Below the pieces are notes generated by a model. That model was not told the origin of the DNA. It saw only the letters and a program-made list of their open reading frames with translations, and searched no databases. Below, in pieces: positions 1 through 57,121 of a DNA stretch of 57,121 nt (position 1 is the stretch's first letter; each line of letters opens with the position of its first letter). This DNA comes from Desulfobacteraceae bacterium 4572_35.1. Lineage in GTDB: Bacteria; Desulfobacterota; Desulfuromonadia; Desulfuromonadales; Desulfuromonadaceae. The DNA is taken from contig NBLX01000008.1 in assembly GCA_002084705.1 (NCBI GenBank), forward strand, positions 1-57,121, in the 5' to 3' direction. Position numbers and translations under genes: made by a program.

Positions 1-6
1 ACCGGT

Positions 7-95: not shown

Positions 96-129
96 ATAGA
101 GTTAGTTACAAACCGCGAACATCGCTCTT

Positions 130-237: not shown

Positions 238-279
238 TTTATCCGCACCGTTCCGCATTATCGATTTTGCCGGTGATCC

Positions 280-366: not shown

Positions 367-416
367 GTTTACATGTTACACATCCATTGGCATCCTTTGG
401 CAGCGCGGATCTGATT

Positions 417-755: not shown

Positions 756-758
756 CTT

Positions 759-1139: not shown

Positions 1140-1162
1140 CCTTATTTCTCCCCTTTATATTT

Positions 1163-2551: not shown

Positions 2552-2693
2552 AGTTGATGGTAACGCAGGCAGATTAGAACTAACTACTTGTAACTGTTGT
2601 CATAACCAGAGTAAAGAGATACATTTATTTTTTCTTCTCATAAACAATTTTAACAGGCACAACACTACGCTGATCTAAAATGAGGGGAACCAA

Positions 2694-3008
2694 ATGCAAC
2701 TGGTTTTTTTACACGGGCTGGAAACAGGGCCGCATGGCAACAAATATCAGGCACTTAAAGCCATGTTTGGGAAGGTCATTTCTCCCGATTGCGAAGGGGT
2801 GTTAGATCCATACCAGAGATTGCAAATCATCCAGGCAACAATGAAAGAGCAACCTGGACCCTTTATAGTTGTCGGATCCAGCGCGGGTGGTTTGATGGCA
2901 TTGCTGTGGCAACAGGTTGAGCCACGAATAGTCGGTTTAGTGCTATGCGCGCCGGCACTGCATCCTTTATTCAAAAATTGCAGACCGGTCAGTCAAAAGG
3001 CACGGTGA
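2694..3008 (+). pseudogene. YqiA-like alpha/beta hydrolase, C-terminally truncated
   Basis: The first about 95 residues match the start of the YqiA/UPF0227 esterase family. LVFLHGLETGP gives the oxyanion-hole strand, and VVGSSAGGLMALLW carries the GxSxG nucleophile elbow with its serine. Family members run to about 190 residues and end with the catalytic Asp and His. Here the frame stops after 104, and the last residues overlap the lipoprotein gene on the other strand. A GAGGGG site precedes the start. The catalytic triad cannot be complete, so this is probably a gene remnant. Confidence 0.6.
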
Positions 3009-3333
3009 TCTTAACCTCGCCACCTTCTACCTTTTCTACCAAACCTTCCTGTTGAGGATCAAGCAGAACCCCGGGGCTAACCTCAATTTCTCGCAGTTTT
3101 GCAGAATCTTTCTCTAGTCGCTCAGGGGGCATAGCTAAAAGGGGTTGCTCTTTTTTATCAGCAACTTTTTCCAAAAACTCCCGAGACATCTTCAAATCAA
3201 CTGCGGCTTTTTCCTTTTCCTGAATAACCGCCGGACTTTCAGGTACAACCTTTGCCCCCTCCTCTGACTGACATGCCACCAGCAACAAGGGGATAACGAC
3301 AATAGCAAAAAGACGTTGGTAAAGGTTTTTCAT
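2989..3333 (-). CDS. Small lipoprotein of unknown function
   Basis: The likely start is the internal ATG at 3333, because a GGGGGGG run sits seven bases before it and a signal peptide follows directly. A short positive segment (KNLYQR) precedes a hydrophobic stretch ending in the lipobox LLVAC. The mature part (about 90 residues) is highly charged, rich in Glu and Lys, and predicted mostly helical and surface-exposed. No family is recognised. Its last 20 bases overlap the truncated hydrolase on the opposite strand, so the junction that cut the hydrolase lies at or near this gene. Confidence 0.7.
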   Translation of the reverse strand: MKNLYQRLFAIVVIPLLLVACQSEEGAKVVPESPAVIQEKEKAAVDLKMSREFLEKVADKKEQPLLAMPPERLEKDSAKLREIEVSPGVLLDPQQEGLVEKVEGGEVKITVPFD

Positions 3334-3412
3334 CTTATTTACCCCCCCGTTGTAAAACAGATACAAGTAAACTCAATCATGTATTCTACATTTCCATTTC
3401 GCCCATAATGAG

Positions 3413-4216
3413 TTAGAGATTAACCACACATTTCTCTGCCGACGGTTTACGTTGTTTAAACACGCGCCGCGCTTCACAAGCTGCGCCGATAGCACCGATC
3501 AATTGCGGCTGAGAAGGCACCTGCATATCAAAGCCGATCAGCGCAGAAACCTTGTCTCGCAAGCAGCGGTTGTGAGCACCACCACCGGCAAACATAACTG
3601 AACCATAGATGCCGTTGCGCCGCAACATCCCTGCCGCCCGCTGCGCAACGGAATCGATCACCGCGTTGGCAACATCGGCACGCGGACAACCACTGTTGAG
3701 CAACGACACCACCTCAGACTCGGCAAACACAGCACACATGGAGGATATCTTCAGCGTTTTATCAACTGCCTGCAACGGTGCGGCAGCAAACTCATCCATG
3801 CTGTATCCCAACGTCACCGCCATAACTTCCATAAATTTTCCCGTTCCGGCGGCACATTTTTCATTCATCTGAAATTCGTTCACTGCGCCGTTTTCATCCA
3901 GCGTAATGCTTTTAGTGTCCTGACCACCAATATCCAAAATGGTACGCACATCGGGTAACACATAACGCGCCCCCCGAGCATAGGCCTTAATTTCGGTAAT
4001 CACCTCGGCACCAAAGTTATTGTTGGCAGCATGACGACCATAGCCGGTAGCAACAATCTGATCATAGTCAAACTGCGCCACATGATCACGCGCCCGGGCG
4101 ATGGGATCATAACCGGAATCGATAAGATCATGATGGAGCAGCTCGCCACTTGCGCTATCGAGGAGAACAAAACCGATAGTGCGCGAACCGATATCAATAC
4201 CGGCGGCAACCATCAA
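3413..4216 (-). CDS. ATPase activator of a double-cubane / 2-hydroxyacyl-CoA dehydratase-type enzyme
   Basis: A 267-residue ASKHA-fold ATPase of the HgdC/BcrAD/YjiL family. DIGSRT (phosphate 1), DIGGQDTK (phosphate 2) and the C-terminal GGGAHN adenosine motif are all present. C121 (NEKCAAGTGKF) and C161 (SSMCAVFAESE) are the two cysteines that, in a homodimer, hold the single [4Fe-4S] cluster. Known activators use ATP hydrolysis to push one low-potential electron into a partner protein. The partner gene ends inside this start region (stop at 4213), so translation is coupled. At 267 residues it is full length. Confidence 0.9.
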   Translation of the reverse strand: MMVAAGIDIGSRTIGFVLLDSASGELLHHDLIDSGYDPIARARDHVAQFDYDQIVATGYGRHAANNNFGAEVITEIKAYARGARYVLPDVRTILDIGGQDTKSITLDENGAVNEFQMNEKCAAGTGKFMEVMAVTLGYSMDEFAAAPLQAVDKTLKISSMCAVFAESEVVSLLNSGCPRADVANAVIDSVAQRAAGMLRRNGIYGSVMFAGGGAHNRCLRDKVSALIGFDMQVPSQPQLIGAIGAACEARRVFKQRKPSAEKCVVNL

Positions 4217-5511
4217 ATACCCTCCTTGCGATCGCTTAAAGTTTCCAAGAACGCCTCAATTCTGGTCTGCAACTGCCCCACATCCTCCTGCGAATAATCA
4301 GTTTCCAACCGCATAACCGCTATTCCGGCATCCTTGAGCTGCTTCTCCACTCTGAACCCCTCAATAGTGAAGGGATCGCACGATTGCAGCGCATAATGGA
4401 TCACCCCATCAACTGAATACTCTGAACTCTTGCGAATAATTTTATCAATTCTAGTTTGATTCGGGGTAAAACAGGCGCAGTCGATCTGCAGCGAACGCTG
4501 GTTGATATCACTAACCATCTGCTCAATACTTTTACCCTCACCCTCTACTACCAAATTCTGAAAATAACGCTCACCTGTACACATTTCGTCAAATACGATA
4601 CGGGCACCAGCGGTCTCTATCAGATGGGGAATCTTCCAGTTAGGGATCGCCATGGGGGTGCCGCTAACCATAATACGCAACATATCCTTGCCACTCTGGT
4701 GCGCGGCGGTCTGCTCAATACGCTGCTCCAACTCATCGCACAACTCATTAACTTTAGCAGTAAATCTATCTATATCGTCGTAAAAGGCAACCTGATAAAT
4801 AAGCAACGCATCCTTACCGCTTATGGGTGACGGATCAGCTTTTCTGGCTGCGCTGAGGCGTTGCAACGCTTTGCGTTTGTTATTAACTCGGCGGATACCG
4901 TCCTGCAACGACTGCTCGGTTATCTTGTTGCCGGTTAGTTTCTCCACCACCTCGATAAACCGCTGCAATTCAGCATCCCACATCTGATAGTCGATCTGGT
5001 TTTTCTTCTGCGGGGTCTCCATCACATGAACAGGGATGTAGTCGCCAAGCAGCTCAAAACTTTTTTTCTTACCATCACAGGTGGTTTCACCCACCACTAG
5101 ATCAGCCACCTCAAAGTAGGGGCACACCTTGCCCAGCTTGAACCCCATAAACGATTTAATCAGAGCGCAGATATTACGCGGCAAAACCTTCTCCACCTCA
5201 GGTGTTGCCCAATCAATACCACCACAAAGACCCACGGCAACAGCCCCGGCAGCAAGGACAATCTCTTCCGGCACAAACACACACATAGTTGCCAGCACCT
5301 TGCCACCCTGCTGCTTATGTTCCAACAACTCCTGAATCCGCTTACCATGCAACTCAGAAATAAGATTATCAAAATATTGCATCCCCTGTGGGCGATCTGT
5401 CTGCGACAGATAAATATCCTGATACAAACCAGGCAGAGCACTCATCAATATATCGTGATCTGCCATATTAAGCCCTAGTTCAGACCACATTTCGGTATAA
5501 TCGTTCATCAT
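4213..5511 (-). CDS. Double-cubane cluster protein (HgdB/YjiM-like reductase)
   Basis: This is a 432-residue member of the 2-hydroxyacyl-CoA dehydratase subunit family. I place the start at 5511 (AGGGA site five bases upstream) rather than the longer reading from 5601. Cysteines are spread as in double-cubane proteins: ATMC, GLCGG, RNICAL, KVCPYF, ETTCDG, EMCTGE, CACFTP and QSCDPF. A single catalytic subunit paired with one activator, rather than two dehydratase subunits, fits DCCP or E. coli YjiM/YjiL better than a classical dehydratase. Characterised DCCPs reduce small molecules such as acetylene at an [Fe8S9] cluster; the natural substrate is unknown. A CoA-acid dehydratase remains possible. 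Confidence 0.85.
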   Translation of the reverse strand: MMNDYTEMWSELGLNMADHDILMSALPGLYQDIYLSQTDRPQGMQYFDNLISELHGKRIQELLEHKQQGGKVLATMCVFVPEEIVLAAGAVAVGLCGGIDWATPEVEKVLPRNICALIKSFMGFKLGKVCPYFEVADLVVGETTCDGKKKSFELLGDYIPVHVMETPQKKNQIDYQMWDAELQRFIEVVEKLTGNKITEQSLQDGIRRVNNKRKALQRLSAARKADPSPISGKDALLIYQVAFYDDIDRFTAKVNELCDELEQRIEQTAAHQSGKDMLRIMVSGTPMAIPNWKIPHLIETAGARIVFDEMCTGERYFQNLVVEGEGKSIEQMVSDINQRSLQIDCACFTPNQTRIDKIIRKSSEYSVDGVIHYALQSCDPFTIEGFRVEKQLKDAGIAVMRLETDYSQEDVGQLQTRIEAFLETLSDRKEGI

Positions 5512-8648: not shown

Positions 8649-9477
8649 ATGACAGCCGAGTGGCAAGGTCAACTCAGAAACTTTGTTAACACCATCGACC
8701 GCCTTGAACAGTACATCAATTTAAGCAACGAGGAGCACAAGGTTCTTGAAGCAAACACCACGACCTGGGGAACCACGCCCTACTTTGCTGCCCTTATGGA
8801 TCGTGATGATCCAAACTGCCCAATCCGCAAACAAGTGATTCCATCCTGTCATGAACAGGAAAATGTATTTGGCATGGATAACTATCTGGTATGGAAAGAA
8901 AATCGTGCCACCGATGAGGTGCGACCTGACAGTATTGCCCGTCAGTATAAAGATCGCGTTGCCTTCACCGTCACCCAGACCTGCGGCGTCTACTGCCGTC
9001 ACTGTTTTCGCAAGGAACTGGTGGTCGATGGTGATCTGAAGCTTGACTTCAATGTCGATGAGGGGTTGAGATGGATTGCAGAACACCCAGAGGTGCGCGA
9101 TGTTCTGGTCACCGGCGGTGATCCATTGCTGTTGCCCGACGAGCAGATCGCCTACCTTCTTGATAGCCTGCGCAATATTCCACATATTGAGATGATCCGC
9201 ATTGGTTCAAGATTGCCGATCGTGCTGCCATGCCGCATCACCGACAGCTTGAAAAAAATTCTCGGTCAATATCACAAGGTACCGATCTGGATTAACACCC
9301 AATGCAACCACCCCAAAGAGTTAACCCGGTCTAGCGCAGCCGATGTATGTGGTAGCTACCAATATTGGCAAAATTCCACTGATGCCCGATTACTATATTC
9401 AGGACAAGGACGAGCAACAATATACCTTGAAAAACCACCTCGGCAACACAACCACCATCCCTAATATGCCCGAATAA
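8649..9477 (+). pseudogene. kamA: Lysine 2,3-aminomutase family (KamA), internal deletion and frameshift
   Basis: Residues 1-226 are a clear KamA-type radical SAM protein. C112, C116 and C119 (CGVYCRHC) would bind the [4Fe-4S] cluster, and VTGGDPLLL and NTQCNHPKELT are family motifs. Directly after ELT the frame degenerates. The family C-terminus (QPMYVVATN..GKIPLMPDYYI, ending NMPE) appears in the +1 frame from about 9331 to the stop at 9477. Family members have roughly 95 more residues between these points, so an out-of-frame internal deletion has removed part of the barrel. A good AAGGAG site remains. The intact enzyme would move the amino group of lysine (or act on elongation factor P). 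Confidence 0.85.
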
Positions 9478-9520
9478 AGCTGGTGTACTTCATAGCAACA
9501 AATAGCCCAATTTGACCTTT

Positions 9521-9562
9521 AGCAGCCTTCGAAACGCAATCTATAGCGACTCGAAGGCTGCT
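9521..9562. terminator. Strong nested hairpin after the kamA remnant
   Basis: AGCAGCCTTCGA (9521-9532) and TCGAAGGCTGCT (9551-9562) are perfect 12-base inverted copies. Inside the loop CGC and GCG can pair again. There is no U-run on either strand, so termination is a guess, but the stem is too long to be chance. Confidence 0.5.
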
Positions 9563-9683
9563 GCCAATTTGGCATCCTCGCACCCAATTAATAAAATCCC
9601 TCAATCAAAATGATTAAAAGTGAATGAGAGCTTGACAACGCTGAGCTTTATCCGGACACTTTCACTACCAATTCTCAACATAA

Positions 9684-10040
9684 AAGCGAGCCCAACAAGC
9701 ACAGCAAGATCGCCAACGCAATGAACAGCGACGGCAGCAGGAACAACGCAAGGCGAATCAGGCGGCAGCCAAACAGATTATTAACGCCAATCGCCAACTA
9801 CTAAAAGAGGGGGATGATAGCTATCACTATGTAAATGGCGATGGGCAGATCAATCGCATCTTCGTTACAAAAGAAACAGCGGATCAACTAGCCAATGGGA
9901 TAATGGGCTTGGCCATGTATGATGATGAAATTGTGCTGATTCCGGCAGATGCGATCGCCAAAGTGCAGCAGCGCGACGCCGACGCGGTTTTGGCATATAA
10001 TGATCCGGCTGAGCAGGATGAGTATCCGGAACAGTGGTAG
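9684..10040 (+). pseudogene. DUF2058 (YaiL-like) protein, N-terminus missing
   Basis: An open frame without a usable start codon runs from just after a TAA (9681-9683) to the TAG at 10038. It translates to a Gln/Arg-rich coiled segment (QQAQQDRQR, RRQQEQRKANQ) followed by the DUF2058 C-terminal domain: LLKEGDDSYHYVNGDGQINR, IFVTKETADQLANG, IVLIPADAIAKVQQRD and an acidic tail ending in EQW. Family proteins are about 175-180 residues with a basic N-terminal helix; here about 119 remain. The only in-frame ATGs lie deep in the domain. It is a remnant in the same decayed stretch as kamA. Confidence 0.72.
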
Positions 10041-10086
10041 GGTATTCTTGCTGTTTTGTTTTCGGGTGATCACCACAACCAACCTG

Positions 10087-10896
10087 TTACGCGCGACCAC
10101 TAGTCTTACTGTCAACAAACACATCCTGACGTAACACACCATAGCGGTTAAAACACACACGTAAGGTCATGAGTATGGTCAGGACCACGCTTGTTATTGT
10201 GCTGACAACAATGGCAACCATGATCATTATTTGATATTTAATTGCCACTTCGGGACTCGCACCCCCCAAGATGACTCCGGTCATCATGCCGGGCAATGCC
10301 ACAATACCCATAGTCGCCATGGAGGCAAGTGTTGGCTTTAACGCCAATTGCACGCTTTCGCGCAGATAGGGGAGTAACGCTTCGTAATGTGAAGCACCAA
10401 GAGACAACACATATAGATACTTTTTGCTGTCACTTCTGATTTTTTTATAAAAGGTGGTGATGCCGACAACATTACCGCGCAAAGAGTTGCCCAGTAACAT
10501 GCCGCCCAGAACAATCAGATATTTCGCGTCAAAAATATTATCAAGCCGAATAACAACACTGTTGATGTACAAAATAGCACCAACGTTAGCAATAAAAAAC
10601 GAGGCAAAAGCCGGGATGGCGACTTTGCTGATTTTTATAGAAGAGCCTCTGATGGCCGAAAAGACAGCGACGACAACCATAATCGTCAACCAGAGCAAAT
10701 TGACCAACGTGTTGTTCCATAAAAAAAGGTATTTAAGAAAGATCCCCACCAGAATGAGCTGAATGCTCATCCGCGTAACCGCATAAAACAACGGCCCAAT
10801 CAGGGCGAAGCGATAAATCAGGCTTAAAAGTACAGGTACAACCAGCAGCAGAAAGGTTAAGCCTAATGAAAATAGCGAGAGATCTACAGTCTCCAT
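10087..10896 (-). CDS. fetB: Iron-export ABC permease FetB
   Basis: A 269-residue UPF0014/FetB membrane protein with about seven hydrophobic helices. The family hallmarks LGGMLLGNSLRGNVVG, LSLGASHYEALLPYLRESVQLALKPT and MATMGIVALPGMMTGVILGG are present in order. In E. coli FetAB exports iron and protects against oxidative stress. It overlaps the end of fetA by 13 bases and has a strong AGGAGGG site. Length is normal. Confidence 0.9.
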   Translation of the reverse strand: METVDLSLFSLGLTFLLLVVPVLLSLIYRFALIGPLFYAVTRMSIQLILVGIFLKYLFLWNNTLVNLLWLTIMVVVAVFSAIRGSSIKISKVAIPAFASFFIANVGAILYINSVVIRLDNIFDAKYLIVLGGMLLGNSLRGNVVGITTFYKKIRSDSKKYLYVLSLGASHYEALLPYLRESVQLALKPTLASMATMGIVALPGMMTGVILGGASPEVAIKYQIMIMVAIVVSTITSVVLTILMTLRVCFNRYGVLRQDVFVDSKTSGRA

Positions 10897-20771: not shown

Positions 20772-22350
20772 TTTAATCAGCAATTTTCATTTCATCCGCC
20801 CGCAATGGCTGTGGTTACTGCTGTTGTGCTATATGCTTATTCTCCTGTGGAAACATGGCTATAAACGGCAACATCAAGCACTGTCCATCTGGAGCAAACA
20901 GTGTGACCCCCAACTGCTGCCCCATCTGCTTATTGCCAGCCCGGCAACTCAGCTCAAGCAGGTGAGCACTAAAAGCTGGCTAATGGCACTGGCAGCGACG
21001 CTGGCAATTACAGCCCTGGCCGGGCCAACATGGCAACGGCAGCAACAGCCACTGTTCAAACAACAATCGGCGCTGGTGGTGGCTCTGGATCTTTCCCAAT
21101 CTATGCAGAGCGGTGACCTGAAACCTAGCCGCATGGTGCAAGCCAGACTGAAACTGACCGACCTGCTCCGTCAACGGCGCGAAGGGGAAACAGCTTTAAT
21201 TGTTTTTGCCGCTGAACCATTCACGGTGGTGCCTCTCACCGACGACACCAAAACCATAACGGCCCTGCTCAGCACCTTGGAACCAGCGTTAATGCCGGCT
21301 CAGGGCAGCAATATCAGCGCTGCCATAGAGATGGGGGTTGAGCTATTGCGGCAGGGACATAAGCCCGACGGTACTGTTTTGCTAATAACCGACGACGATG
21401 AGCCAACCTCGGCTACCGGTGCTGCTCGAAAATTGAAAACAGCTGGTTACACCCTGTCTATTCTCGGCGTCGGCACCAGCACCGGAGCGCCAATACCGCA
21501 GCCACAGGGTGGCTTTATCAAGGAGGGCAGCGGGCAAATGGTTCTAGCCAAGCTGCAAGCGGACAAGTTGCGCCAGCTTGCAGCTTGTGGTGGCGGCGCC
21601 TACCGCACCATGAGCATAGACAACAGCGATATAGATGCTCTGCTGAGCAATTTGGGCAACAATAGACGTTTAGAAAATGAAAATACGAAGCTCAAAGGCA
21701 ATCAGTGGCGTGAAGATGGGGTCTGGTTGTTGCTGCCGTTACTGCTGTTAGCGGCGCTGGCTTTCAGGCGCGGGTGGCTACTACTGTTATGTTTCACCCT
21801 GTGGATGCCAGCGCCGGCACAAGCCATCAGTTGGGAGCAGCTATGGCATAATGATAACCAGCGCGGAGCACGCTCTTTCAACAACGGAGATTTTAGTGGT
21901 GCCAGCAAACAGTTTAGCGATAAACGCTGGAAAGCCAGTGCCATGTACCGCAATAACGAGTTTGAACAGGCGATAAAAACATTAGAGCATCCTGAAACCG
22001 CTGATGATTGGTACAAGATCAGAAGGATCAGAAGGATCAGAAGGATCAGAAGGATCAGAAGGATCAGAAGGATCAGAAGGATCAGAAGGATCAGAAGGAT
22101 CAGAAGGATCAGAAGGATCAACAAAACGCTGCCAGCCAACAGAAGCAAGAACAAAATCACTCTGAACAAGATAAAAATGTCGGTGAAAAAGATCACGCCA
22201 ACAATAAAGAAGATGAAAAGGACTGGCAACAGCAGCGCTGGCTACAACAGGTTCCAGATGATCCCGGCGGATTATTGCGACGCAAATTTCTCTATCAATA
22301 TCAACAACGGCAACATCAACCAAATAGTGACAAACCATGGTAAAGCATAA
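20764..22350 (+). CDS. batB: BatB-like VWA/TPR protein, frame broken at a 9-bp repeat
   Basis: From the ATG at 20764: two N-terminal helices, then a VWA domain with DLSQSM and ITDDDEP at about residues 110-240, two further helices (about 325-360), and the beginning of the TPR region (QRGARSFNNGDF, WKASAMYRNNEFEQA). The family then normally continues with YNRGNALA and one TPR unit. Here the sequence jumps after DDWY into a tandem repeat and reads as repeated Ile-Arg-Arg to 22350. The true family C-terminus lies in another frame (next entry). An internal deletion of about 50 codons plus frameshift is the simplest reading. The VWA part should still be made. Confidence 0.85.
   Translation: MNDLISNFHFIRPQWLWLLLLCYMLILLWKHGYKRQHQALSIWSKQCDPQLLPHLLIASPATQLKQVSTKSWLMALAATLAITALAGPTWQRQQQPLFKQQSALVVALDLSQSMQSGDLKPSRMVQARLKLTDLLRQRREGETALIVFAAEPFTVVPLTDDTKTITALLSTLEPALMPAQGSNISAAIEMGVELLRQGHKPDGTVLLITDDDEPTSATGAARKLKTAGYTLSILGVGTSTGAPIPQPQGGFIKEGSGQMVLAKLQADKLRQLAACGGGAYRTMSIDNSDIDALLSNLGNNRRLENENTKLKGNQWREDGVWLLLPLLLLAALAFRRGWLLLLCFTLWMPAPAQAISWEQLWHNDNQRGARSFNNGDFSGASKQFSDKRWKASAMYRNNEFEQAIKTLEHPETADDWYKIRRIRRIRRIRRIRRIRRIRRIRRIRRIRRIRRINKTLPANRSKNKITLNKIKMSVKKITPTIKKMKRTGNSSAGYNRFQMIPADYCDANFSININNGNINQIVTNHGKA
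22008..22343 (+). pseudogene. BatB/BatC C-terminal segment, out of frame
   Basis: Reading the repeat in this frame gives repeated Lys-Asp-Gln, a Gln/Lys/Asp-rich linker and then QQRWLQQVPDDPGGLLRRKF, the hallmark C-terminus of BatB/BatC TPR proteins. The stop overlaps the batD start by seven bases, the expected spacing. So this is the original C-terminus of the upstream gene, separated from it by a frame change at about 22012-22020. No ribosome site supports independent translation. Confidence 0.75.
22014..22121 (+). repeat. 9-bp tandem repeat, 12 units
   Basis: Ten perfect copies of AAGGATCAG run from 22023 to 22112, flanked by CAAGATCAG (22014) and AAGGATCAA (22113). It is a multiple of three, so gain or loss of units would not change the frame. 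All three plus frames are open through it. Only Lys-Asp-Gln fits the charged linkers of the family. Such arrays change length by slippage and are also prone to assembly collapse. Confidence 0.95.
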
Positions 22351-30659: not shown

Positions 30660-32120
30660 TTAAAACAGAGCCTGTCGCGCTAGCGACATGATACTGCCCG
30701 GCAGTATGCCCATATACAGGACAACGATAACCGAAACAACTACACAAATAGTAGCACCAGGCATTAGCCTAACCCAATCAAACTCCTCTTCTGCATCTTT
30801 AAAATACATAAATACCATAACCCTCAGGTAATAATACAAAGATACAGCTGAGTTCAGCACACCGAGAATTGCCAGCCAGATATATCCAGCTTCAACTGCA
30901 CCTGCAAAGATATAAAACTTACCACTAAATCCTGCCGTTGGTGGTATTCCCATCAATGAGAACAAACAGATCGACAACAACACTGCCAGTAGAGGTCTTT
31001 TATAACCCAAGCCTCGGAAACCATCGAGGGTCAAGTTGTCCTCACCTTGCTTACCAATCAGTACCAGCACCGCAAAAGCACCGATATTCATGAAAGTGTA
31101 GGCCAACATATAATAAAGAACACCTGAAACACCAATTTCGTTAGCAGCAACCAAGCCCACCAAGGCATAACCTGCATGCGCTATTGAAGAATAAGCCAAC
31201 ATACGCTTAAGGTTTGTCTGATTCAGGGCAATAAAGTTACCCGTAACCATGGTCAACACAGCCAAAACCCACAGCGTTGACTGCCATGTATCATGCATTG
31301 ATCCCATACTTACCAACAATATACGCATGAAAGCGGCAAAGGCAGCTGCCTTTGGACCAGCACTCATAAAAGCAGTCACTGGAGTTGGAGCGCCTTCATA
31401 AACATCGGGAGTCCACATATGAAACGGAGCAATGGCAATTTTAAACAGAAAACCTGTAGACATCAACAGCATTCCAGCAACTGACACTATATTTGTGACA
31501 GCTTCTGGTGTCTGAGCATAGAATCCAGCGATATCAACTAAGTTAGTTGTACCAGTAACACCATATATTAATGCCATACCATAGAGAAGGAAGCCCGTTG
31601 AAAAGGCACCCAGCAGGAAGTACTTTAGACCTGCCTCATTTGAGCGTTTCTGCCCGCGGAAGAAACCGGCAAGGATATACAGCGATACCGACAGCACTTC
31701 CAACCCAAGGAAAATGGTCATCAGATCTGTACCAGTAGCCATTATCATGGCACCAACAGTACAGAACAGTACTAACGGATAAAACTCACCAACCGGATAA
31801 CCCTCTCGCTTAAGATAACCATCCGACATCAGTATCGTCAATGCGGCAGCTATCAGAACCACAAAGGTAAAGAAAACACCGAAATTATCCAATACGACAT
31901 GACCGGCAAAACCGGCTTCGGGATGATTCCATGCGTAAAATGCCGAAAAAGCAGTTGTAGCCAGGGCCAGCAGACTTATCCAGGCCACAGGAGCTGTAGC
32001 TCCACGCCGAGAGAAAGCAACAATCAGTAGCAAGCCCATGCTGAAACACGCCAGAACCACAGATGGCATGATGGCTGCAAAATTCACATTCTGCAAGGCT
32101 GTTTGCACCAGATTTTCCAT
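30660..32120 (-). CDS. nuoN: NADH-quinone oxidoreductase subunit N
   Basis: A 486-residue antiporter-like membrane subunit with about 14 helices. PVTAFMSAGPKAAAFAAFMR and LKRMLAYSSIAHAGYALVGL are proton-channel segments with their conserved lysines, and LMGIPPTAGFSGKF is typical for NuoN. It is the last gene of the nuo operon, intact and of normal length. A second nuoN fragment at 56396-57121 is clearly different in sequence. Confidence 0.95.
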   Translation of the reverse strand: MENLVQTALQNVNFAAIMPSVVLACFSMGLLLIVAFSRRGATAPVAWISLLALATTAFSAFYAWNHPEAGFAGHVVLDNFGVFFTFVVLIAAALTILMSDGYLKREGYPVGEFYPLVLFCTVGAMIMATGTDLMTIFLGLEVLSVSLYILAGFFRGQKRSNEAGLKYFLLGAFSTGFLLYGMALIYGVTGTTNLVDIAGFYAQTPEAVTNIVSVAGMLLMSTGFLFKIAIAPFHMWTPDVYEGAPTPVTAFMSAGPKAAAFAAFMRILLVSMGSMHDTWQSTLWVLAVLTMVTGNFIALNQTNLKRMLAYSSIAHAGYALVGLVAANEIGVSGVLYYMLAYTFMNIGAFAVLVLIGKQGEDNLTLDGFRGLGYKRPLLAVLLSICLFSLMGIPPTAGFSGKFYIFAGAVEAGYIWLAILGVLNSAVSLYYYLRVMVFMYFKDAEEEFDWVRLMPGATICVVVSVIVVLYMGILPGSIMSLARQALF

Positions 32121-32189
32121 GTAAATGCTCCTTTAGAAGCGGTTTAACGTAAAGATCAATTTATAAAGCACACTGCAAAGAACAATCAA

Positions 32190-32780
32190 TTAGTGATGTA
32201 GTCCATGAGACGGTGCTTGCTCTTCTACTTCGGTGGTTACCGCGGCTGCTTCATGAACAGCAGCAGGAACTACAGATGTATATACCGGAGTTTTTTCTCT
32301 AGTTATCTGCTGAATAATCTGATCTACAGCGGGATTCATTTTTTCCAGGAAAGTATTTGGAGCAACACCAATCCAGAATACGAAAACCATCAGCGGCAAC
32401 ATGATACACATCTCGCGTAATGACAGATCTTTAAGATTCTGATTCTTTGGATTATCCAACTTTCCAAACATAACTCGCTGGTACATCCACAACATATAGA
32501 CTGCAGCAAAAATAACACCCGAGGTTGCGAAAACAGCGAACCAGCGTAATTCACCCTGAAAAGCCCCCAGCAGAATCATAAACTCACCAACAAAACCGTT
32601 AGTTCCAGGTACGCCGATGGAGGACAGAGTAATAATCATGAAGACCGTCGCATAAACAGGCATCTGTTTAGACAAGCCACCGAAATCCTTAATCAGGCGA
32701 GTGTGACGTCGTTCATATATAAAGCCAACAATGAGGAACAGCGCCCCAGTAGAGATACCATGGTTGATCATTTGCAGCAC
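32190..32780 (-). pseudogene. nuoM: nuoM, C-terminal fragment (out of frame)
   Basis: From about 32803 downward this frame reads LNTVGVSGAVLQMINHGIS, then FIYERRHTRLIKDFGGLSKQ and continues to a normal NuoM C-terminus rich in membrane helices. The apparent start at 32780 (GTG) is internal to a conserved helix and has no ribosome site. So this is the second part of nuoM, detached by a frame change from the first part. About 200 residues remain. Confidence 0.88.
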
Positions 32781-33579
32781 TGCACCGCTGACACCAACCG
32801 TATTCAGCTGCCAAAATTACTGAACCGGCAGTTGGTGCTTCGGTATGAGCATCTGGCAACCAGGTATGAACTGGAAACATAGGAACTTTAATCGCGAAGC
32901 TAAGAGCGAAGGCAAGGAACAACCACTTTTGCAACTCTGGATCAAGTGATAGTTGGTAGAAATCGGTAATATTAAAACCACTGATGTTCATGCCGGATTT
33001 TACCGCAGCATAATAAATGAACATGATGGCCACCAACATCAACAGGGAGCCAACCGCCGTATAGATGAAGAATTTAACCGCTGCATAAATTCGGTTCGCC
33101 CCACCCCAGATTCCGATCATAAAATACATCGGGATCAACATCAATTCCCAGAAAATATAGAACAGGAACAGATCCAGAGAGATAAACGCACCCAGCATAG
33201 CCGTTTCGAGCAGCAATATTAACGCCATGTAGCCTTTAACGTTGGTATTGACTGCCTGCCAGGTAGACAAAATAGCGATAGGCATAATGAAGGTGGTTAA
33301 CATGACCAGCCATAAACTGATTCCGTCAATACCAACACTATAGTTCATGTGAAAATAGTTACCAACACTGATCCATTCTGCAAATTCAGTGTAGTGCATG
33401 CCTCCGGAAGTTTTGAACACCGGATCAAGAGCCAAAGGAATGCTAATGACGAAGGTAATCAAAGAGAATACCAGCGCAGCACCTTTAAGCAATCCACCAT
33501 TATTTTTAGGCAACATCATAACGATTAGCATGCCTAAAATGGGGAAGAATGTCATCAAGCTGAGAAGATGTTCTGACAT
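32713..33579 (-). pseudogene. nuoM: nuoM, N-terminal fragment (broken by deletion)
   Basis: Residues 1 to about 257 are a normal NuoM N-terminus (MSEHLLSLMTFFPILGML; SVGIDGISLWLVMLTTF; HTWLPDAHTEAPTAGSVILA). In the family the last motif continues with a helix bearing LLKMG and about 65-80 residues before VLQMINHG. Here LNTVGVSG follows at once in another frame near 32803-32810. The missing part contains conserved proton-path lysines. As written, complex I could not be complete unless another nuoM exists or the assembly is wrong. Confidence 0.88.
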
Positions 33580-33622
33580 TAGAAGTTGCTCCTTGTATAT
33601 AAGGTCTTATTCACAGCTATCA

Positions 33623-35602
33623 TCAATTAAATACGTAGACAGCAATGATGGCTACGACACCAATTACCATCGACATTGCATAGTTGTGTGTATAACCACT
33701 CTGTGTGTAGCGTAGAGTCTTACCGACACCCTTAACCGTCCATGCTACACCATTGACAATACCGTCGACAAAACGAGCGTCGAAAATTTGCCACAACACA
33801 GTACCGGCACGCTTAGTCGGGTTAACAATCAATGCATCATAAAACTCATCGATATACCATTTATTAAAAACAGCACGGTGTAATTTAGGGAATACCGCAA
33901 CAAGTTTTCCTGGTAGCTGTGGGTTTTTACAGTACATTATCCATGCCACACCGATACCCACAACAGCGATACCCACTGAAACTCCCATAAACGAGAATTC
34001 AGTTGCTGCTGTACCATGGGCATGAAGCTGATGTAAATGTTGGGTATGCTCAAATACCGGATCAAGAAAATGCTCGATCAGGTTTGGCACATGACCGAAA
34101 AGTTTTCCTAACACATGCGGAACCCCCAAGAAACCACCAATTGTAGCCAAGGCAGCCAGCACCATCAGAGGGAAAGTGATAACCAGCGGAGATTCGGGGA
34201 TGTGATCTTTAGCGCGAGCATCTGTTTTTTGCTCACCAAAGAATGTCATGAATACCAAACGGAACATATAGAACGCCGTCATCAATGCCGCTACAGCACC
34301 CATCAGCCACAATACCCAATGACCACGAGTCGATGCGAAGGACCACCACAGAATCTCGTCCTTGGAGAAAAACCCAGAGAAAAACGGAATACCTGATATT
34401 GCCAGGGTTGACAGCAAGAAAGTAATAAAAGTGATCGGCATTTTCTTACGCAAACCACCCATGTTACGCATATCCTGTGGATCATCATGTATATGGGCAT
34501 GGTGAAAAGCATGGTGCATACCATGAATTACCGAGCCGGAACCGAGGAACAGACAAGCCTTAAAGAAAGCGTGGGTAAGGAGATGAAAAATACCTGCGCT
34601 AAATGCGCCGACACCCATAGCCAAGAACATATAACCCAGCTGTGAGACCGTTGAATACGCCAGCACACGCTTAATATCATTTTGAGCCAGCCCAATTGTA
34701 GCAGCAAATAACGCTGTTGACGCACCCACGATGGCGACAACCATCATAGTATCCGGCGCCATGGCGAACAGCCCATTCATCCGTGCAATCATATATACAC
34801 CAGCAGTAACCATTGTCGCCGCATGGATCAGGGCAGAAACAGGGGTCGGACCTTCCATAGCATCGGGCAACCAAGTATACAGTGGAATCTGAGCTGACTT
34901 ACCAGTAGCGCCAAGGAAGAAGCACAGGGTAATAATAGTAACTATTAAACCACCGTTTTCCAACAATTGAGTACTGGCAGCGATCTCAGTAAAGTTAATT
35001 GTCCACACCCCTTTTTGCCCAAGAGACCAGAACAGAGTAAACAGACCCAGCAAGAAACCGAAGTCACCAACACGGTTAACAACAAACGCTTTTTTACCGG
35101 CATCGCTAGCACTCTGCTTCTCGTAATAGTAGCCGATGAGCAGGTATGAGCACAGACCAACACCCTCCCAACCAACAAACATTACCAATGCGTTGTTGCC
35201 TAAAACCAGCATCAACATAGCAAAAGCAAACAGGTTCATGTATGAAAAGAAACGGAAATAACCCTCTTCACCGTGCATATAACCGATAGAATACAACGTA
35301 ATCAACGTAGCTAAACCGCTGACATTCATCATCATCAGGCCAGACAAAGGATCGAGGAGAAAACCCCAATTTACATGCAATGGCCCAGCTGTAATCCAAC
35401 TGGTTATAATTACTTCGTGCACCTTCTGGTCATCACCAAGTAATTGCAAAAAATAGTGACAGGACACTAAAAATGAACAGAAGATTGACAAGGTTGCAAT
35501 AGACCCAATCACCTTTTCATTTTTAATTCTTTTGCCCAACAAACCGTTGATCAAAAAACCTATAAAGGGGAACAGCGGTATGAGCCATAATTTATCGTAC
35601 AT
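33623..35602 (-). CDS. nuoL: NADH-quinone oxidoreductase subunit L
   Basis: A 659-residue antiporter-like subunit with about 16 helices. Recognised by YLLIGYYYEKQSASDAGKKAF, IPLYTWLPDAMEGPTPVSAL and NDIKRVLAYSTVSQLGYMFLA. The C-terminal part contains the lateral helix and final anchor that brace the membrane arm. The His-rich cluster HHAFHHAHIHDD is in the usual place. Intact. Known role: pumps protons at the distal end of complex I. Confidence 0.96.
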   Translation of the reverse strand: MYDKLWLIPLFPFIGFLINGLLGKRIKNEKVIGSIATLSIFCSFLVSCHYFLQLLGDDQKVHEVIITSWITAGPLHVNWGFLLDPLSGLMMMNVSGLATLITLYSIGYMHGEEGYFRFFSYMNLFAFAMLMLVLGNNALVMFVGWEGVGLCSYLLIGYYYEKQSASDAGKKAFVVNRVGDFGFLLGLFTLFWSLGQKGVWTINFTEIAASTQLLENGGLIVTIITLCFFLGATGKSAQIPLYTWLPDAMEGPTPVSALIHAATMVTAGVYMIARMNGLFAMAPDTMMVVAIVGASTALFAATIGLAQNDIKRVLAYSTVSQLGYMFLAMGVGAFSAGIFHLLTHAFFKACLFLGSGSVIHGMHHAFHHAHIHDDPQDMRNMGGLRKKMPITFITFLLSTLAISGIPFFSGFFSKDEILWWSFASTRGHWVLWLMGAVAALMTAFYMFRLVFMTFFGEQKTDARAKDHIPESPLVITFPLMVLAALATIGGFLGVPHVLGKLFGHVPNLIEHFLDPVFEHTQHLHQLHAHGTAATEFSFMGVSVGIAVVGIGVAWIMYCKNPQLPGKLVAVFPKLHRAVFNKWYIDEFYDALIVNPTKRAGTVLWQIFDARFVDGIVNGVAWTVKGVGKTLRYTQSGYTHNYAMSMVIGVVAIIAVYVFN

Positions 35603-35648
35603 CTACATCTCCTCTAAGCGGACTGAATCTTCGACAGCCCTGAAGAAG

Positions 35649-35951
35649 TTACCATTTCAACAGGCTGAAGTCCTCAACGTCTACGGAATCACCGTTACGG
35701 AAGAATGCGATCATAAGCGCCAGGCCCACTGCAGCTTCAGCAGCAGCAACAGTCATAATGAAAAACACGAAAACCTGACCATCCATATTACCGAGATGAC
35801 TTGAAAGTGCGATAAAAGTGAGATTAACCGCATTCAACATCAACTCAACGCACATAAAAATTACTATGGCATTCCTGCGAGTTAGCACACCAATGGTGCC
35901 AATTGAAAACAAAATGGCACTTACTGCCATATAGTGAGTGATTGTAATCAT
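35649..35951 (-). CDS. nuoK: NADH-quinone oxidoreductase subunit K
   Basis: A 100-residue, three-helix subunit, exact family length. The key segments are [24 protein letters not shown], with the membrane glutamate (VEL), and [18 protein letters not shown], with the second glutamate. Both acids are part of the proton path linking the quinone site to the antiporters. Confidence 0.95.
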
Positions 35952-35974
35952 GTTAAATCCCCTGTCCTCAGAAT

Positions 35975-36487
35975 TTATACTTCTCGCTTCGCCAGTACAA
36001 CGGCACCGACTATGGCAACCAAGAGCAGAATCGAAGCTATTTCAAACGGAAACAGAAAGTCGGTAAATAAAGCCTGACCAATCAGTTCAGTATGCCCAAC
36101 CTCCTCAATCATCGCACTATTTACGGGGCCAACCACCCCACTGACGTCACCATGCTTTAGGGTAACCAGCACCTGCAACATCATAATACCAGCAGCGACA
36201 ACTGCTCCAACTACCGCATGTCGGCAACGTGCAACTACCTCAGCACCTTGATTGAGCAACATCATTACAAAGATGATCAAAACCATGATGGCACCGGCAT
36301 AAACCATTATTTGTATTGCTGCCATAAAGGGAGCATGCAAGGTTACATAAAAAATCGCCAGACAGAAAAATGTCATAACTAACGAAATAGCACTATTGAT
36401 CGGGTTCTTGCACAATACAACACAGAGTCCCGAAACAATTGTGACAAAGGCGACAAGATAAAAGAATAGCAACTGCAATATTTCCAT
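35975..36487 (-). CDS. nuoJ: NADH-quinone oxidoreductase subunit J
   Basis: A 170-residue, five-helix membrane subunit. [20 protein letters not shown] and [21 protein letters not shown] (the pi-bulge helix) are typical. It lies between nuoI and nuoK as usual, with a 23-base gap to nuoK. Intact. Confidence 0.93.
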
Positions 36488-36507
36488 GGGTGTGTCTCCT
36501 ATCCCGA

Positions 36508-36903
36508 CTATTTGAGCAAGCGCTCCTTGGTGAAGCAGAAGTCTTCACGCTTATAATTAGCCAATTCATACTCGCCGGTCATCTCGATAGCTTCAAGGGG
36601 GCATGCCTCAACACAATAACCGCAGAAGATACAACGCAGCATGTCTATCTGATACACTGTGGGATATTTTTTACCATTTTTATCCTCACCTGCTTCAATT
36701 GTAATACATTTTGCTGGACATACCGTTGGGCACAAATAACAAGCAACACACTTCTCCCGATCGTGCTCCAATACCAAATGATGTAAACCACGGAACCGCT
36801 CGGAGGTCTCCAATCTCTGCTTAGGATATTCAACAGTTGTCGAATTGCCTGGCAAGAGATGTTTTGCCGTTATGCTAAGGCCCTGAATTAACTCTTTAAT
36901 CAT
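36508..36903 (-). CDS. nuoI: NADH-quinone oxidoreductase subunit I
   Basis: A 131-residue ferredoxin-like subunit with two [4Fe-4S] motifs: CVACYLCPTVCP and CIFCGYCVEACP. The clusters (N6a, N6b) relay electrons toward NuoB. The conserved FRGLHHL precedes them. Because nuoEFG are absent, NuoI may be the entry point for a ferredoxin or other donor, as proposed for similar complexes. Confidence 0.95.
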   Translation of the reverse strand: MIKELIQGLSITAKHLLPGNSTTVEYPKQRLETSERFRGLHHLVLEHDREKCVACYLCPTVCPAKCITIEAGEDKNGKKYPTVYQIDMLRCIFCGYCVEACPLEAIEMTGEYELANYKREDFCFTKERLLK

Positions 36904-36936
36904 GGGTTGATCCTTTGTACAGGGGTTACTACATCT

Positions 36937-37953
36937 TTAAAGAAAAACAACAACTGCACCGGTTATAACAATATTCAACAATGCTAAAGGCAAGAACACC
37001 TTCCATCCCATAAACATAAGTTGATCATATCGTACCCGAGGAAACGTGGCACGAATCCAAATAAACAGGAACATAAAGAAGAATACTTTAAGCAACAGAT
37101 TAATCGGACCAGCAAAAGGTCCTGCCGGGCCACCCAGAAACAGTGTCGCAGTAATTGCTGATACAACGATCATATTGGCGTACTCAGCCATGAAGAACAA
37201 AGCGTACTTCATAGATGAATATTCAGTACAAAAACCAGAAACAAGCTCAGTTTCCGCCTCAGGCAAATCAAACGGGGTCCGATTGATCTCCGCTAATGAG
37301 GTGATCACAAACAGACAGAAGGCCAACGGCTGTGAAAAAATGTACCAGTCCAGAACTGATCCCGACTGCGCAGCAACAATACCGCGCAGGCTCAGGGTAC
37401 CAGACAGCATAAAAACCGCTATAATGGCAAGACCAGCGGCAAGCTCATAGGATATAACCTGTGCAGCAGACCTAATCCCACCAAGCAGCGAATATTTGCT
37501 ATTTGATGCCCAACCAGCCAAAACAATACCGTATACACCCAAACCAGCCATAGCCAGAATGTATAATATGCCGATATTTAGATCAGTTATCTGCAACGGA
37601 ACGGCAAAACCCTTAATAACGACATCACCACCAAAAGGGATAACTGCAACGGTAATGAATGCGGGCACTAAAATCATCATCGGCGCCAGCAAAAAAGCCA
37701 ATTTACTCGACTGGGCGGGAATAATATCTTCCTTGAAAAACAACTTCAAACCATCTGCGATGGGCTGGAGCAATCCTAAGGGACCAGTCATCGTGGGTCC
37801 AAGTCGAGTCTGCATCCGACCGATAATCTTGCGCTCGGCATAAGTTGCATAGGCAACGATCAAAATAACCACAATAAATACCGCAAGAATTTTCGCAAGC
37901 ATTAAACTCAAAAACAGTATCGGGTCATTCGAGAGGCTAAGCATTTCAGGCAT
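36937..37953 (-). CDS. nuoH: NADH-quinone oxidoreductase subunit H
   Basis: A 338-residue membrane subunit forming much of the quinone chamber. ERKIIGRMQTRLGPTMTGP, LLQPIADGLKLFFKEDIIP and INRTPFDLPEAETELVSGF (acidic quinone-side loop) are all intact. It directly follows nuoD (101-base gap), where many genomes carry nuoEFG. Confidence 0.96.
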   Translation of the reverse strand: MPEMLSLSNDPILFLSLMLAKILAVFIVVILIVAYATYAERKIIGRMQTRLGPTMTGPLGLLQPIADGLKLFFKEDIIPAQSSKLAFLLAPMMILVPAFITVAVIPFGGDVVIKGFAVPLQITDLNIGILYILAMAGLGVYGIVLAGWASNSKYSLLGGIRSAAQVISYELAAGLAIIAVFMLSGTLSLRGIVAAQSGSVLDWYIFSQPLAFCLFVITSLAEINRTPFDLPEAETELVSGFCTEYSSMKYALFFMAEYANMIVVSAITATLFLGGPAGPFAGPINLLLKVFFFMFLFIWIRATFPRVRYDQLMFMGWKVFLPLALLNIVITGAVVVFL

Positions 37954-38054
37954 GATTTTCCTCTTTCCTTCTTCTCTATTCCCACCTTAATTACATTGGC
38001 AGGAGACTTAAGATACGGCCACAAACGGCGCATCACTGTTTATCGACACTAATA

Positions 38055-39233
38055 CTAACGGTCAATCTCTCCAAGAACAATATCTAGAGTACCGATAGCA
38101 GCAATAACATCAGCAAGTAGCTTGCCCTCAACCATCTTCGGCAATGCTTGTAGATTAACAAAAGATGGTGGCCGAATTTTCATACGGAAGGGATTCGCAC
38201 TACCATCGGAGATCATATAGTATCCGAGTTCACCTTTAGGAGCTTCTACACCTTGGTATACCTCACCAGGTTCCGGCTTGAAGCCCTCAGTGATAATTTT
38301 AAACTGGTGTATCAACCCCTCAATGGAGTTAACAACATCTTTTTTAGGTGGCAAACAAACATCAGGAACATCTGCCAGAATCGGACCGGGTTGCAGCTTA
38401 TCGACCGCCTGACGAATGATCTTGCAGGATTCACGCATCTCATCCAGACGGTTTTTATAACGATCAAAAGTATCACAACCATCACGTGTGATAACTTCAA
38501 AATCATAATCTTCATATCCTGAATAAGGATTATCACGGCGCAAATCCCAGTCCACACCACTTCCACGCAATGCCGGACCGGTAAGTCCGATATCAATAGC
38601 ATCCTCGGCGCTAATTGGAGCAACACCAACTGTACGTTTCTGCCAAATTTTATTGCCAGTCAACAAACCCTCGTAGGTATCTAAATGTCCAGGCATGTCA
38701 TCAATAAAACTGGTCACATCATCTACAAAACCTTCCGGCAAATCGAGAGAGAGACCACCGACACGGAAGTAGTTAGATGTCATCCGCGCCCCAGACAACT
38801 TCTCGTACATGTCCATAATCTGCTCACGCTCACGGAAGCAATACAGAAACACAGTCATCGCTCCTATATCCAAAGCGTGGGTTGCCAGCCACACCAAGTG
38901 ACTCTTAATACGGGTCAACTCAGCCATCATCACGCGAACCACCTTGGCACGTTCCGGAATTTGATCGGTAATTCCAAGCAACTTCTCAACCGTCAGGACA
39001 TAACCTAAGTTATTACTCATCGGTGCCAGATAATCAAGGCGATCGGTCAGAGGAAGTGCGCGATGGTAGCTGCGATTTTCCGCCAACTTTTCTACTCCAC
39101 GATGGAGAAAACCAATATGGGGTACAGCGTTAACGACTGTCTCACCGTCAAGTTCAAGAACCAACTGCAACACACCGTGGGTCGATGGATGCTGTGGCCC
39201 CATATTTATTGTCATCGTCTCTTTTTTAGCCAT
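38055..39233 (-). CDS. nuoD: NADH-quinone oxidoreductase subunit D
   Basis: A 392-residue NuoD (49-kDa type). MGPQHPSTHGVLQLVLELDGE and PHIGFLHRGVEKLAENR mark the quinone-site histidine region; RVGGLSLDLPEGF, TGPALRGSGVDWDLRRD and the final ADVIAAIGTLDIVLGEIDR are normal. It is not fused to NuoC. Confidence 0.97.
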   Translation of the reverse strand: MAKKETMTINMGPQHPSTHGVLQLVLELDGETVVNAVPHIGFLHRGVEKLAENRSYHRALPLTDRLDYLAPMSNNLGYVLTVEKLLGITDQIPERAKVVRVMMAELTRIKSHLVWLATHALDIGAMTVFLYCFREREQIMDMYEKLSGARMTSNYFRVGGLSLDLPEGFVDDVTSFIDDMPGHLDTYEGLLTGNKIWQKRTVGVAPISAEDAIDIGLTGPALRGSGVDWDLRRDNPYSGYEDYDFEVITRDGCDTFDRYKNRLDEMRESCKIIRQAVDKLQPGPILADVPDVCLPPKKDVVNSIEGLIHQFKIITEGFKPEPGEVYQGVEAPKGELGYYMISDGSANPFRMKIRPPSFVNLQALPKMVEGKLLADVIAAIGTLDIVLGEIDR

Positions 39234-39268
39234 TTCAAGCCTCGTTATTTATATCTGCGCTATTAAAG

Positions 39269-39754
39269 TTAAGAAAGTCGACCTTGGTACGGCTCACGAT
39301 CTGGCCCCTGCAACGGATAATCCTTACGCAACGGATGACCAACCCAACCTTCAGCCATCAATATCCGGCGCAAATCGGGATGATTATTGAAAGAGATACC
39401 CATCAGGTCCCAACATTCACGCTCAGGCCAATTAGCTGTACTCCAAACAGTGCTAACCGTATCAACTCTTGGATTTTCTTCCTCAACCGGAACCTTGACC
39501 CGCAAACGCTCTTTAGTTGTGATGTTGTACAGATTATAAACCACCATAAAACGTGGTTGCTGGCCCAAATAGTCAACTCCGCACAGATCACACAGGAAAT
39601 TATACCCGGCTTCATCCTTAAGGAATTGGCAAATGGCAACAATCTCCTCCTTCTTCACCGTAACGGTAACCTCACCACGATACTCTTTTACATCAAGAAC
39701 ATCAGCAGAGAAGGCCTCCCTCAGCTTTGCTACAACAGCTTGACTCATACTCAT
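39269..39754 (-). CDS. nuoC: NADH-quinone oxidoreductase subunit C
   Basis: A 161-residue NuoC (30-kDa type). The signature RVDTVSTVWSTANWPERE...DLMGISFNNHPDLRRILM, followed by the C-terminal GHPLRKDYPLQG, is complete. It starts 36 bases after the nuoB stop and ends 35 bases before nuoD. Confidence 0.95.
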   Translation of the reverse strand: MSMSQAVVAKLREAFSADVLDVKEYRGEVTVTVKKEEIVAICQFLKDEAGYNFLCDLCGVDYLGQQPRFMVVYNLYNITTKERLRVKVPVEEENPRVDTVSTVWSTANWPERECWDLMGISFNNHPDLRRILMAEGWVGHPLRKDYPLQGPDREPYQGRLS

Positions 39755-39790
39755 TTTCCCTATTTGTCAGTTACTAAGTGAATGACATTA

Positions 39791-40333
39791 CTAACCTGGA
39801 ATAACGTCCCCTGCACCAATAGCTGCACCAAAAGTATTACGCTCTCGCATAATCTTCTCCTGCAACTTAATCAAGCCGTACAACAACGCCTCGGGGCGAG
39901 GAGGACAACCCGGCACATAAACATCAACAGGCAACTCTTGATCAATCCCTTGCACCACACTGTAGGTATCAAATACGCCACCAGAGGAAGCACACGCCCC
40001 CATAGCAACAACGTACTTAGGCTCTGGCATCTGCTCATATACAACCTTGATAACCGGCAGCATCTTATGTGTTACCGTTCCGGCAATAATTATCACATCG
40101 GCCTGCCGTGGTGAAGCACGGAACAAAACCCCCATTCGGTCAAGGTCAAATCGTGCCGCACCTGTAGCCATCATCTCAATAGCACAACAAGCAAGACCAA
40201 AGGTCATCGGCCACAGCGAACGAGAACGAGACCAGTTAACTACAAGGTCTAAAGACGTAGTCAAGACATTATTGCCCAAGACTTTGCTATATTCAGCCCC
40301 AGAGGCTTTTTCAGCTCCTTGCGTTACTCCCAT
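39791..40333 (-). CDS. nuoB: NADH-quinone oxidoreductase subunit B
   Basis: The start is the ATG at 40333, since AAGGAG sits seven bases before it; the longer reading from 40354 lies within nuoA. The protein is 180 residues. [19 protein letters not shown] and [11 protein letters not shown] supply the four cysteines of cluster N2, the last iron-sulfur centre before quinone. It overlaps the nuoA stop by ten bases. Confidence 0.95.
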
Positions 40334-40680
40334 TCCAGCGCTCCTTTTTTCCAAACATAAACGTAACCTACCAGCAAGATCACGACAAAGACACCCATCT
40401 CCACAAAACCAAACATCCCCAGTTTCTTAAAGACAACTGCCCAGGGGTAGAGAAAGACTGTCTCAATGTCAAACAGAATAAACAACATCGCCACAATGTA
40501 AAATTTGACCGAAACCCGCTCACGTGCGGTTCCGACAAGTGGCATACCACACTCATAGGGCGCTAATTTTATGGCACTCGGTTTTTTAGGACCAATCAAG
40601 AATGAAAAAGTCACCGAGCCCAAAGCAAACAACAGAGCGATGATTATGAGGACGAGTATCGGTAGATAACTCTCAAGCAT
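40324..40680 (-). CDS. nuoA: NADH-quinone oxidoreductase subunit A
   Basis: A 118-residue, three-helix subunit opening the nuo operon. [25 protein letters not shown]-type core (the conserved YECG loop) and [13 protein letters not shown] are intact. The start has a GGAACCGTTCC-containing leader and follows a good promoter candidate about 75 bases upstream. Confidence 0.95.
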
Positions 40681-56395: not shown

Positions 56396-57121
56396 TTATA
56401 AAAGTGTTGCTACAGCATTTTGTGCTGCCGACAAGAGCGTTTGTGGCATAGCACCAGCTACCAAAATAATTACAATGAAAAAGGCAGCCATAATCTTGGC
56501 AGTAAAAGGGAGAACAATAGTCTCCTTTTCAACGTCAGGAACACAATATGCTACCCGTACCATCTTCAGATAGTAGTAAGCCGCTGCCGCTGCATTAATA
56601 ACAGCGATTATTACCAAAGCATAGAAACCTTTATCAATCGCGCCAGTGAACAGCATAAACTTGCCAATAAAACCAATCGTAGGCGGAACTCCTGCCATAC
56701 TAAAGGCAGATACCAACAATGTCATTGCCAATAACGGTGAACGCCGTGACAACCCTTTCAGATCATCAAAAGTAACATTCTCACCCTCTGGGGCAATATT
56801 ATAGATGACATAAAAACAACCAAGGTTCATAAGCAGGTAAGCAGTGATATAAAATACTGCTGAAGCCATACCAACCTTATCAGCTGTTAAAATACCAAGC
56901 ATAACATACCCGGCATGGGCAATACTTGAATAAGCCAGCAAACGCTTCAGGTCAGACTGAACTAGTGCGCTTAGGTTACCAATAGTCATTGAAAACACAG
57001 CCACTGTTGCCAGAACCCAAGTAAACTGGGTTATATCAACACCTGCTACGGATACTAGGCGCAACAACAAAATTACCGCACCAACCTTAGGCACAGTTGC
57101 AACAAAACTAGTTGTCTCGTT
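56396..57121 (-). CDS. nuoN: Second NADH-quinone oxidoreductase subunit N, partial
   Basis: A frame open to the right edge of the window (240 or more residues). FVATVPKVGAVILLLRLV, LKRLLAYSSIAHAGYVMLGI and SMAGVPPTIGFIGKFMLF are NuoN proton-channel segments. It is clearly divergent from the nuoN at 30660 and ends with its own terminator, so it is probably the last gene of a second nuo operon lying beyond the window. The real start is outside. Confidence 0.9.
   Translation of the reverse strand, partial: NETTSFVATVPKVGAVILLLRLVSVAGVDITQFTWVLATVAVFSMTIGNLSALVQSDLKRLLAYSSIAHAGYVMLGILTADKVGMASAVFYITAYLLMNLGCFYVIYNIAPEGENVTFDDLKGLSRRSPLLAMTLLVSAFSMAGVPPTIGFIGKFMLFTGAIDKGFYALVIIAVINAAAAAYYYLKMVRVAYCVPDVEKETIVLPFTAKIMAAFFIVIILVAGAMPQTLLSAAQNAVATLL

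Follow-up and report, generated by a model that had tools for sequence, protein, structure and literature searches.

A nuoM gene broken by a clean internal loss in a draft genome of the Desulfuromonadaceae is most probably an artefact of assembly

Introduction

NuoM, a proton-pumping subunit of respiratory complex I, is encoded in the window (the whole stretch of 57,121 nucleotides analysed here, contig C119 of a draft assembly of 166 contigs and 2,328,692 bases) by a gene that falls into two frames, with a piece of the conserved sequence missing between them. The question is whether the organism has lost a part of complex I or the assembly has lost a part of the gene. The initial annotation left three readings standing, namely that this complex I is dead, that a second nuoM elsewhere in the genome supplies the missing part, or that the assembly is wrong. 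The draft, which looks like a metagenome bin, is 87.05% complete and 4.77% contaminated.

Results

Structure and extent of the nuoM lesion

The gene and its surroundings comprise the following features.

33579..32190, minus strand: nuoM as assembled, in two frames, with the switch at about 32806
32806..33579, minus strand: N-terminal piece of nuoM, 258 residues, family positions 1-247
32806..32807, minus strand: nuoM junction, where 215 bp are absent compared with nine of nine relatives of the same genus
32190..32805, minus strand: C-terminal piece of nuoM in another frame, family positions about 318-485
33623..35602, minus strand: nuoL, intact, upstream of nuoM
30660..32120, minus strand: nuoN, intact, downstream of nuoM

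The first piece runs up to GSVILA and the second, with the frame shifted, begins LNTVGVSG; these ends, as initially annotated, are confirmed by the translations and by the coverage of the NCBIfam profile TIGR01972 (486 positions). In the profile search, the first piece matched positions 1-247 and the second 318-485, so that about 70 family positions, approximately 248-317 on this scale, are missing and neither piece extends over the full family length. The first piece scored 279.5 bits, above the curated cut-off of 263.8, yet covers only its 247 of the 486 positions, and the second scored 200. Both pieces are members of the NuoM family and lie, like other members, between nuoL and nuoN in the nuo operon; unlike them, the gene as assembled lacks the central positions and switches frame.

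The conserved lysine of the central LLK or MLK helix of NuoM has a role in proton transfer. Both translations were checked for this motif and neither piece contains it; it occurs in the NuoM of a relative and in the solved structures 8qby and 7ar7. The segment VMLKMGTYGYVRF of an intact relative falls inside the absent stretch.

By DNA matches, the absent stretch amounts to 215 bp (71 codons plus 2 bases) against each of the nine relatives of the same genus, although for two of them (G001 and G002) this figure holds after allowing for an alignment gap of 1 or 2 bases. When the same nine were compared by protein, the figure was 215 bp in six and 197 bp in three (G004, G005 and G009), the smaller value arising because the protein alignment extends beyond the junction. 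The lengths reported here come from such DNA and protein comparisons. Automatic placement of the gap was erratic (for example, 97 bp for G006, 113 bp for G007 and none for some relatives), and automatic junction placements were used only for G009. The early estimate of 65-80 missing residues (about 200 bp), with the LLK helix among them, thus agrees with the comparison, and the junction lies within the range of 32780-32830 that had been proposed for it.

nuoM in relatives and the state of its neighbours

The 215 bp are present in all nine genomes of the same genus; in G009, for instance, nuoM is a single whole gene of 535 residues. The flanks of the lesion diverge ordinarily from these nine relatives, with identities of 78-82% and 75-79%. 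Among the best 80 matches, the closest to the N-terminal piece was from the metagenome bin Desulfobacteraceae 4572_35.2 (89% amino acid identity), and other closest matches among those listed came from bins labelled Geobacteraceae (MAG32) and Desulfuromonas.

More broadly, nuoM DNA was matched in 52 of the 58 genomes searched, the window's own genome included. When the loci of 29 relatives were compared by protein, 215 bp were missing against 16 and 197 bp against 11. These 27 loci hold an unbroken nuoM, and against each of them the gene of the window is in two pieces that lack 197-215 bp between them. The two loci that lack a whole nuoM are those of G038, where the contig ends, and G012, a draft of some 330 contigs from the same family, in which nuoM is frame-broken and lacks 169 bp. 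The loss in G012 adjoins the missing interval of the window and does not coincide with it. Contig C29 of G038 stops inside nuoM at the place of the window's junction, as does contig MHXM01000029; because the coordinates agree, the two look like a single record and hence a single observation. A recurrent break site in nuoM was considered and rejected, given that one observation and a loss beside the interval, not at it, are all that these genomes offer.

Eleven genes (A, B, C, D and H-N) make up the nuo operon, which is on the minus strand and spans 40680-30660. The ten other than nuoM (nuoN, L, K, J, I, H, D, C, B and A) are intact, as had been noted initially: aligned with five relatives of the same genus, they match end to end except for 1-2 terminal residues, at 77-93% identity, and the sole internal gap is one residue in nuoB.

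At this locus (30660-40680, minus strand), which is where we looked for them, no nuoE, nuoF or nuoG was seen; electrons may enter this complex I through another partner.

A second complex I at the end of the window

In relatives, the genes nuoN2, nuoM2 and nuoL2 of a second complex I lie directly beyond the right end of the window. In the draft, they are distributed as follows.

56396..57121, minus strand: C-terminal part of nuoN2, cut by the contig end; the N-terminal part opens contig C63
Contig C63: nuoM2, 143 bp lost by DNA comparison, 161 bp by tblastn
Contig C63: nuoL2, 285 bp lost
Contig C133 (L010), 1-5255: a copy of nuoL2-nuoM2-nuoN2-apbE, with nuoM2 intact

Measured against five of five relatives, the end of the window and the start of C63 lie 147 bp apart inside nuoN2, a figure that extrapolates across up to 28 unaligned bases. 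Thus, in nuoN2, a piece of a size similar to the other losses was dropped and the contig was left broken, whereas at 32806 the ends were joined.

The suggestion that the genome might hold a second nuoM proved right insofar as a second complex I exists, on C63; however, its nuoM2 is itself broken, by the loss of 143 bp. Rescue by the intact nuoM2-type gene of C133 (the fourth gene of which we take to be apbE) is not supported either. Over 3063 bp, the nuoM2-nuoN2 part of C133 matches G003 at 90% identity, compared with 74-79% for C63. The first 4.1 kb of C133 have a G+C content of 48%, against 43% for the initial 4 kb of C63, which hold the same genes. One nuoM2-type locus each was found in G002, G006 and G008, which are assembled in one or two contigs apiece. 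On these sequence comparisons, C133 is probably a contaminant from a related species. More distant matches to TIGR01972, below the cut-off, are paralogues of the hydrogenase or antiporter type on C81 and C99.

Clean losses in unrelated genes

Where comparison with relatives was possible, clean losses of 34-330 bp were seen elsewhere in the assembly, in unrelated genes that include secY. In addition to nuoM2 and nuoL2, these are the following.

Window, 8649..9477, plus strand: kamA-like gene, 248 bp absent at about 9326, with a change of frame
Contig C63: porin-like gene, 95 bp lost
Contig C45 (L147), 9125-10257: secY, 178 bp lost
Contig C141: motA, 143 bp lost
Contig C141: flhF, 330 bp lost
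Contig C93: pgi, 34 bp lost
Contig C93: glgP, 65 bp lost
Contig C125: hydantoinase-like gene, 215-233 bp lost

The identities of secY and nuoM rest on family scans, and those of motA, flhF, pgi, glgP, kamA, the hydantoinase and the porin are presumed, their names having been read off the sequences. The loss in the kamA-like gene holds against all eight relatives in which both pieces are matched; in G003, the ninth, just one is. Only two of the eleven loss lengths (285 and 330) are divisible by three, and there is therefore no sign of selection for the reading frame. The 406,736 bases of the assembly that were read contain no N characters.

The gene secY encodes the central component of the protein translocation channel; it is indispensable in the bacteria studied. 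In this assembly it was found in one place only, in two pieces (1-262 and 325-414 of 414), whereas the four relatives compared carry a single unbroken secY each. The broken gene sits in a ribosomal-protein operon that, judged by eye, appears intact; the genes behind it are presumably those for adenylate kinase and methionine aminopeptidase. A living cell that relied on this broken secY alone is not credible. Because the sole secY found is broken, its loss is most simply explained as an assembly artefact, and the other losses resemble it, although this reading is tempered by the 13% of the genome that may be absent from the assembly. A second essential gene, rpoB, was rejected as a yardstick, being absent from the searches of the draft itself, and secY was used instead; rpoB was likewise not found in G001 and G009 and is present in G002 and G006.

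Frequency of losses compared with controls

To put a rate on these losses, we read 25 of the 166 contigs of the draft, in part or whole (stretches of 22 contigs in addition to the window, C63 and C133), 20 of the 25 having been picked at steps of eight along the contig list. This sample amounts to 0.41 of 2.33 Mb, of which 0.13 Mb was comparable with relatives. The stretches were compared with the proteins of G002 and G006, relatives assembled in single contigs, and a loss was counted if it was at least 30 bp long and both flanks showed at least 60% identity. By this rule, the draft has 8 losses in 130,100 bp compared. When G002 and G006 were compared against each other, there was 1 loss in 340,341 bp and 0 in 337,935 bp, the single one being an in-frame length difference of 570 bp that we kept in the count. 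A third control, run on the nuo regions of three relatives (G007, G008, G009), gave 0 losses in 129,461 bp. The concentration of eight of nine losses in the draft's share, with the first two controls as the remainder, has a binomial p of 3.5e-6; the draft was compared with two protein sets and each of these two controls with one (the third control with both), which favours losses in the draft. Four of the eight sit on C119 and C63, contigs examined for their nuo genes, and with the contigs so chosen excluded, 4 losses in 84,764 bp remain (p 7e-4).

The hydantoinase-like gene and flhF (below 60% identity) and kamA (found by DNA) stand outside the eight. The rows left out, all shorter than 30 bp, are C37 at 1404 (17 bp; 46% and 37% identity), C45 at 7006 and C81 at 1100 (-1). 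The same test recorded no small frameshift-like breaks in the draft, against 6, 6 and 5 in the three controls; the losses are therefore not ordinary pseudogene decay. In-frame stops, with individual stops taken unvetted, were listed in 24 alignments of the draft; the controls had 91, 116 and 90 such alignments.

Discussion

Taken together, the recurrence of clean losses in unrelated genes, the absence of the nuoM lesion from relatives, the single, broken secY and the open gap of 147 bp in nuoN2 make us highly confident, from comparison of sequences, that the lesion in nuoM is an artefact of assembly and not a biological deletion. Of the three readings initially offered, a wrong assembly is the one that the data strongly support. 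The organism itself most likely has a whole nuoM and a normal complex I.

A real internal deletion, which would make nuoM a pseudogene and leave complex I inactive or remodelled, perhaps in a decaying genome, appears very improbable. Such a deletion would fit the clean flanks of nuoM in the assembly as given, as well as the size of the assembly, which at 2.33 Mb is small compared with the 3.8-4.5 Mb of relatives in one or two contigs, in a genus where drafts of 1.9-3.1 Mb exist. However, a dead complex I as an isolated event finds no support when like losses occur in secY, motA, flhF, pgi, glgP, kamA, nuoM2 and nuoL2: the lesion is shared with the only secY found and with nine other genes, so that the losses do not spare genes that the cell cannot lose, as pseudogene formation by deletion would. 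Moreover, the other ten nuo genes have stayed intact at 77-93% identity to relatives, and the losses come without small frameshifts.

Slightly less probable still, in our estimate, is a mixture of strains, in which the assembly would have retained a deleted variant present in some cells or merged two related populations at the junction. The bin does seem to carry a related population, as indicated by the similarity of C133 to G003 and by the estimated contamination. Nevertheless, the two flanks of nuoM show ordinary divergence from all nine relatives, the same type of loss recurs in unrelated genes, and a variant with a deletion in secY should be inviable. We give equally little weight to a real variant in which clean deletions of 30-330 bp are spread over the genome, one complex I and parts of the second are inactivated, and secY and other functions are provided by copies that an assembly 87% complete has missed. 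Finally, the idea that the two pieces of nuoM are separate proteins which together form a functional subunit can practically be dismissed: each piece is a long open frame (258 and about 200 residues), but the roughly 71 lost residues are kept in 27 of 29 relatives' loci and in solved relatives of NuoM, and losses also affect the second complex I, in nuoM2 and nuoL2.

Under the assembly explanation, the assembler would have met stretches of approximately 30-330 bp that it could not read through and would have dropped them, after which the flanking pieces would have been joined directly, with neither filling nor Ns. Three such stretches would touch C119, those in nuoM (215 bp), kamA (248 bp) and nuoN2 (147 bp), the last having been left open. 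The simplest cause would be that contig ends bridged by read pairs were joined without fill; the missing bases should then be present in the reads.

At the examined junctions we found no sequence feature accounting for the positions of the breaks. With slippage between direct repeats in mind, we read the junctions against the relatives' sequences and saw no long repeat there. A tangle caused by conserved, shared sequence was considered for nuoM, which breaks close to where nuoM2 does, and rejected: among the nine relatives, conservation is 0.813 in the missing stretch and 0.833 and 0.811 in the rest of the gene, and such a tangle is therefore unsupported there. Across genes, the identity to relatives is somewhat higher in broken (n=7) than in unbroken ones (n=98; P 0.029), the broken ones also being longer. 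C63 and C133 share no exact match of at least 17 bases that crosses the junction in either nuoM2 or nuoL2. If 215 and 143 bp were lost at random positions of a gene 1.6 kb long, the two would overlap in about one case in five.

Gaps and local assembly errors in metagenome assemblies have been described, in a review of metagenome curation, as a source of incomplete protein-coding genes (PMC7111523). The present case resembles those in that gene-breaking losses would lie at contig joins in a fragmented, partly contaminated bin. It differs in that the errors treated in the part of that article drawn on here are gaps filled with Ns, consensus sequence without read support and miscounted repeats, and that part describes no clean losses lacking Ns such as those found here.

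Annotation of the draft as it stands would record, among other things, defects in both complexes I, in secY and in a flagellar motor gene, and none of these losses should be taken as biology before the reads are checked. Clean losses in an indispensable gene, combined with contig ends that face each other across gaps of like size, are a cheap sign of such assemblies.

Elsewhere in the window, a gene region that we take to be Bat-like contains a short tandem repeat at approximately 22008-22130 on the plus strand, which reads as (DQK)n or, in another frame, as (RRI)n.
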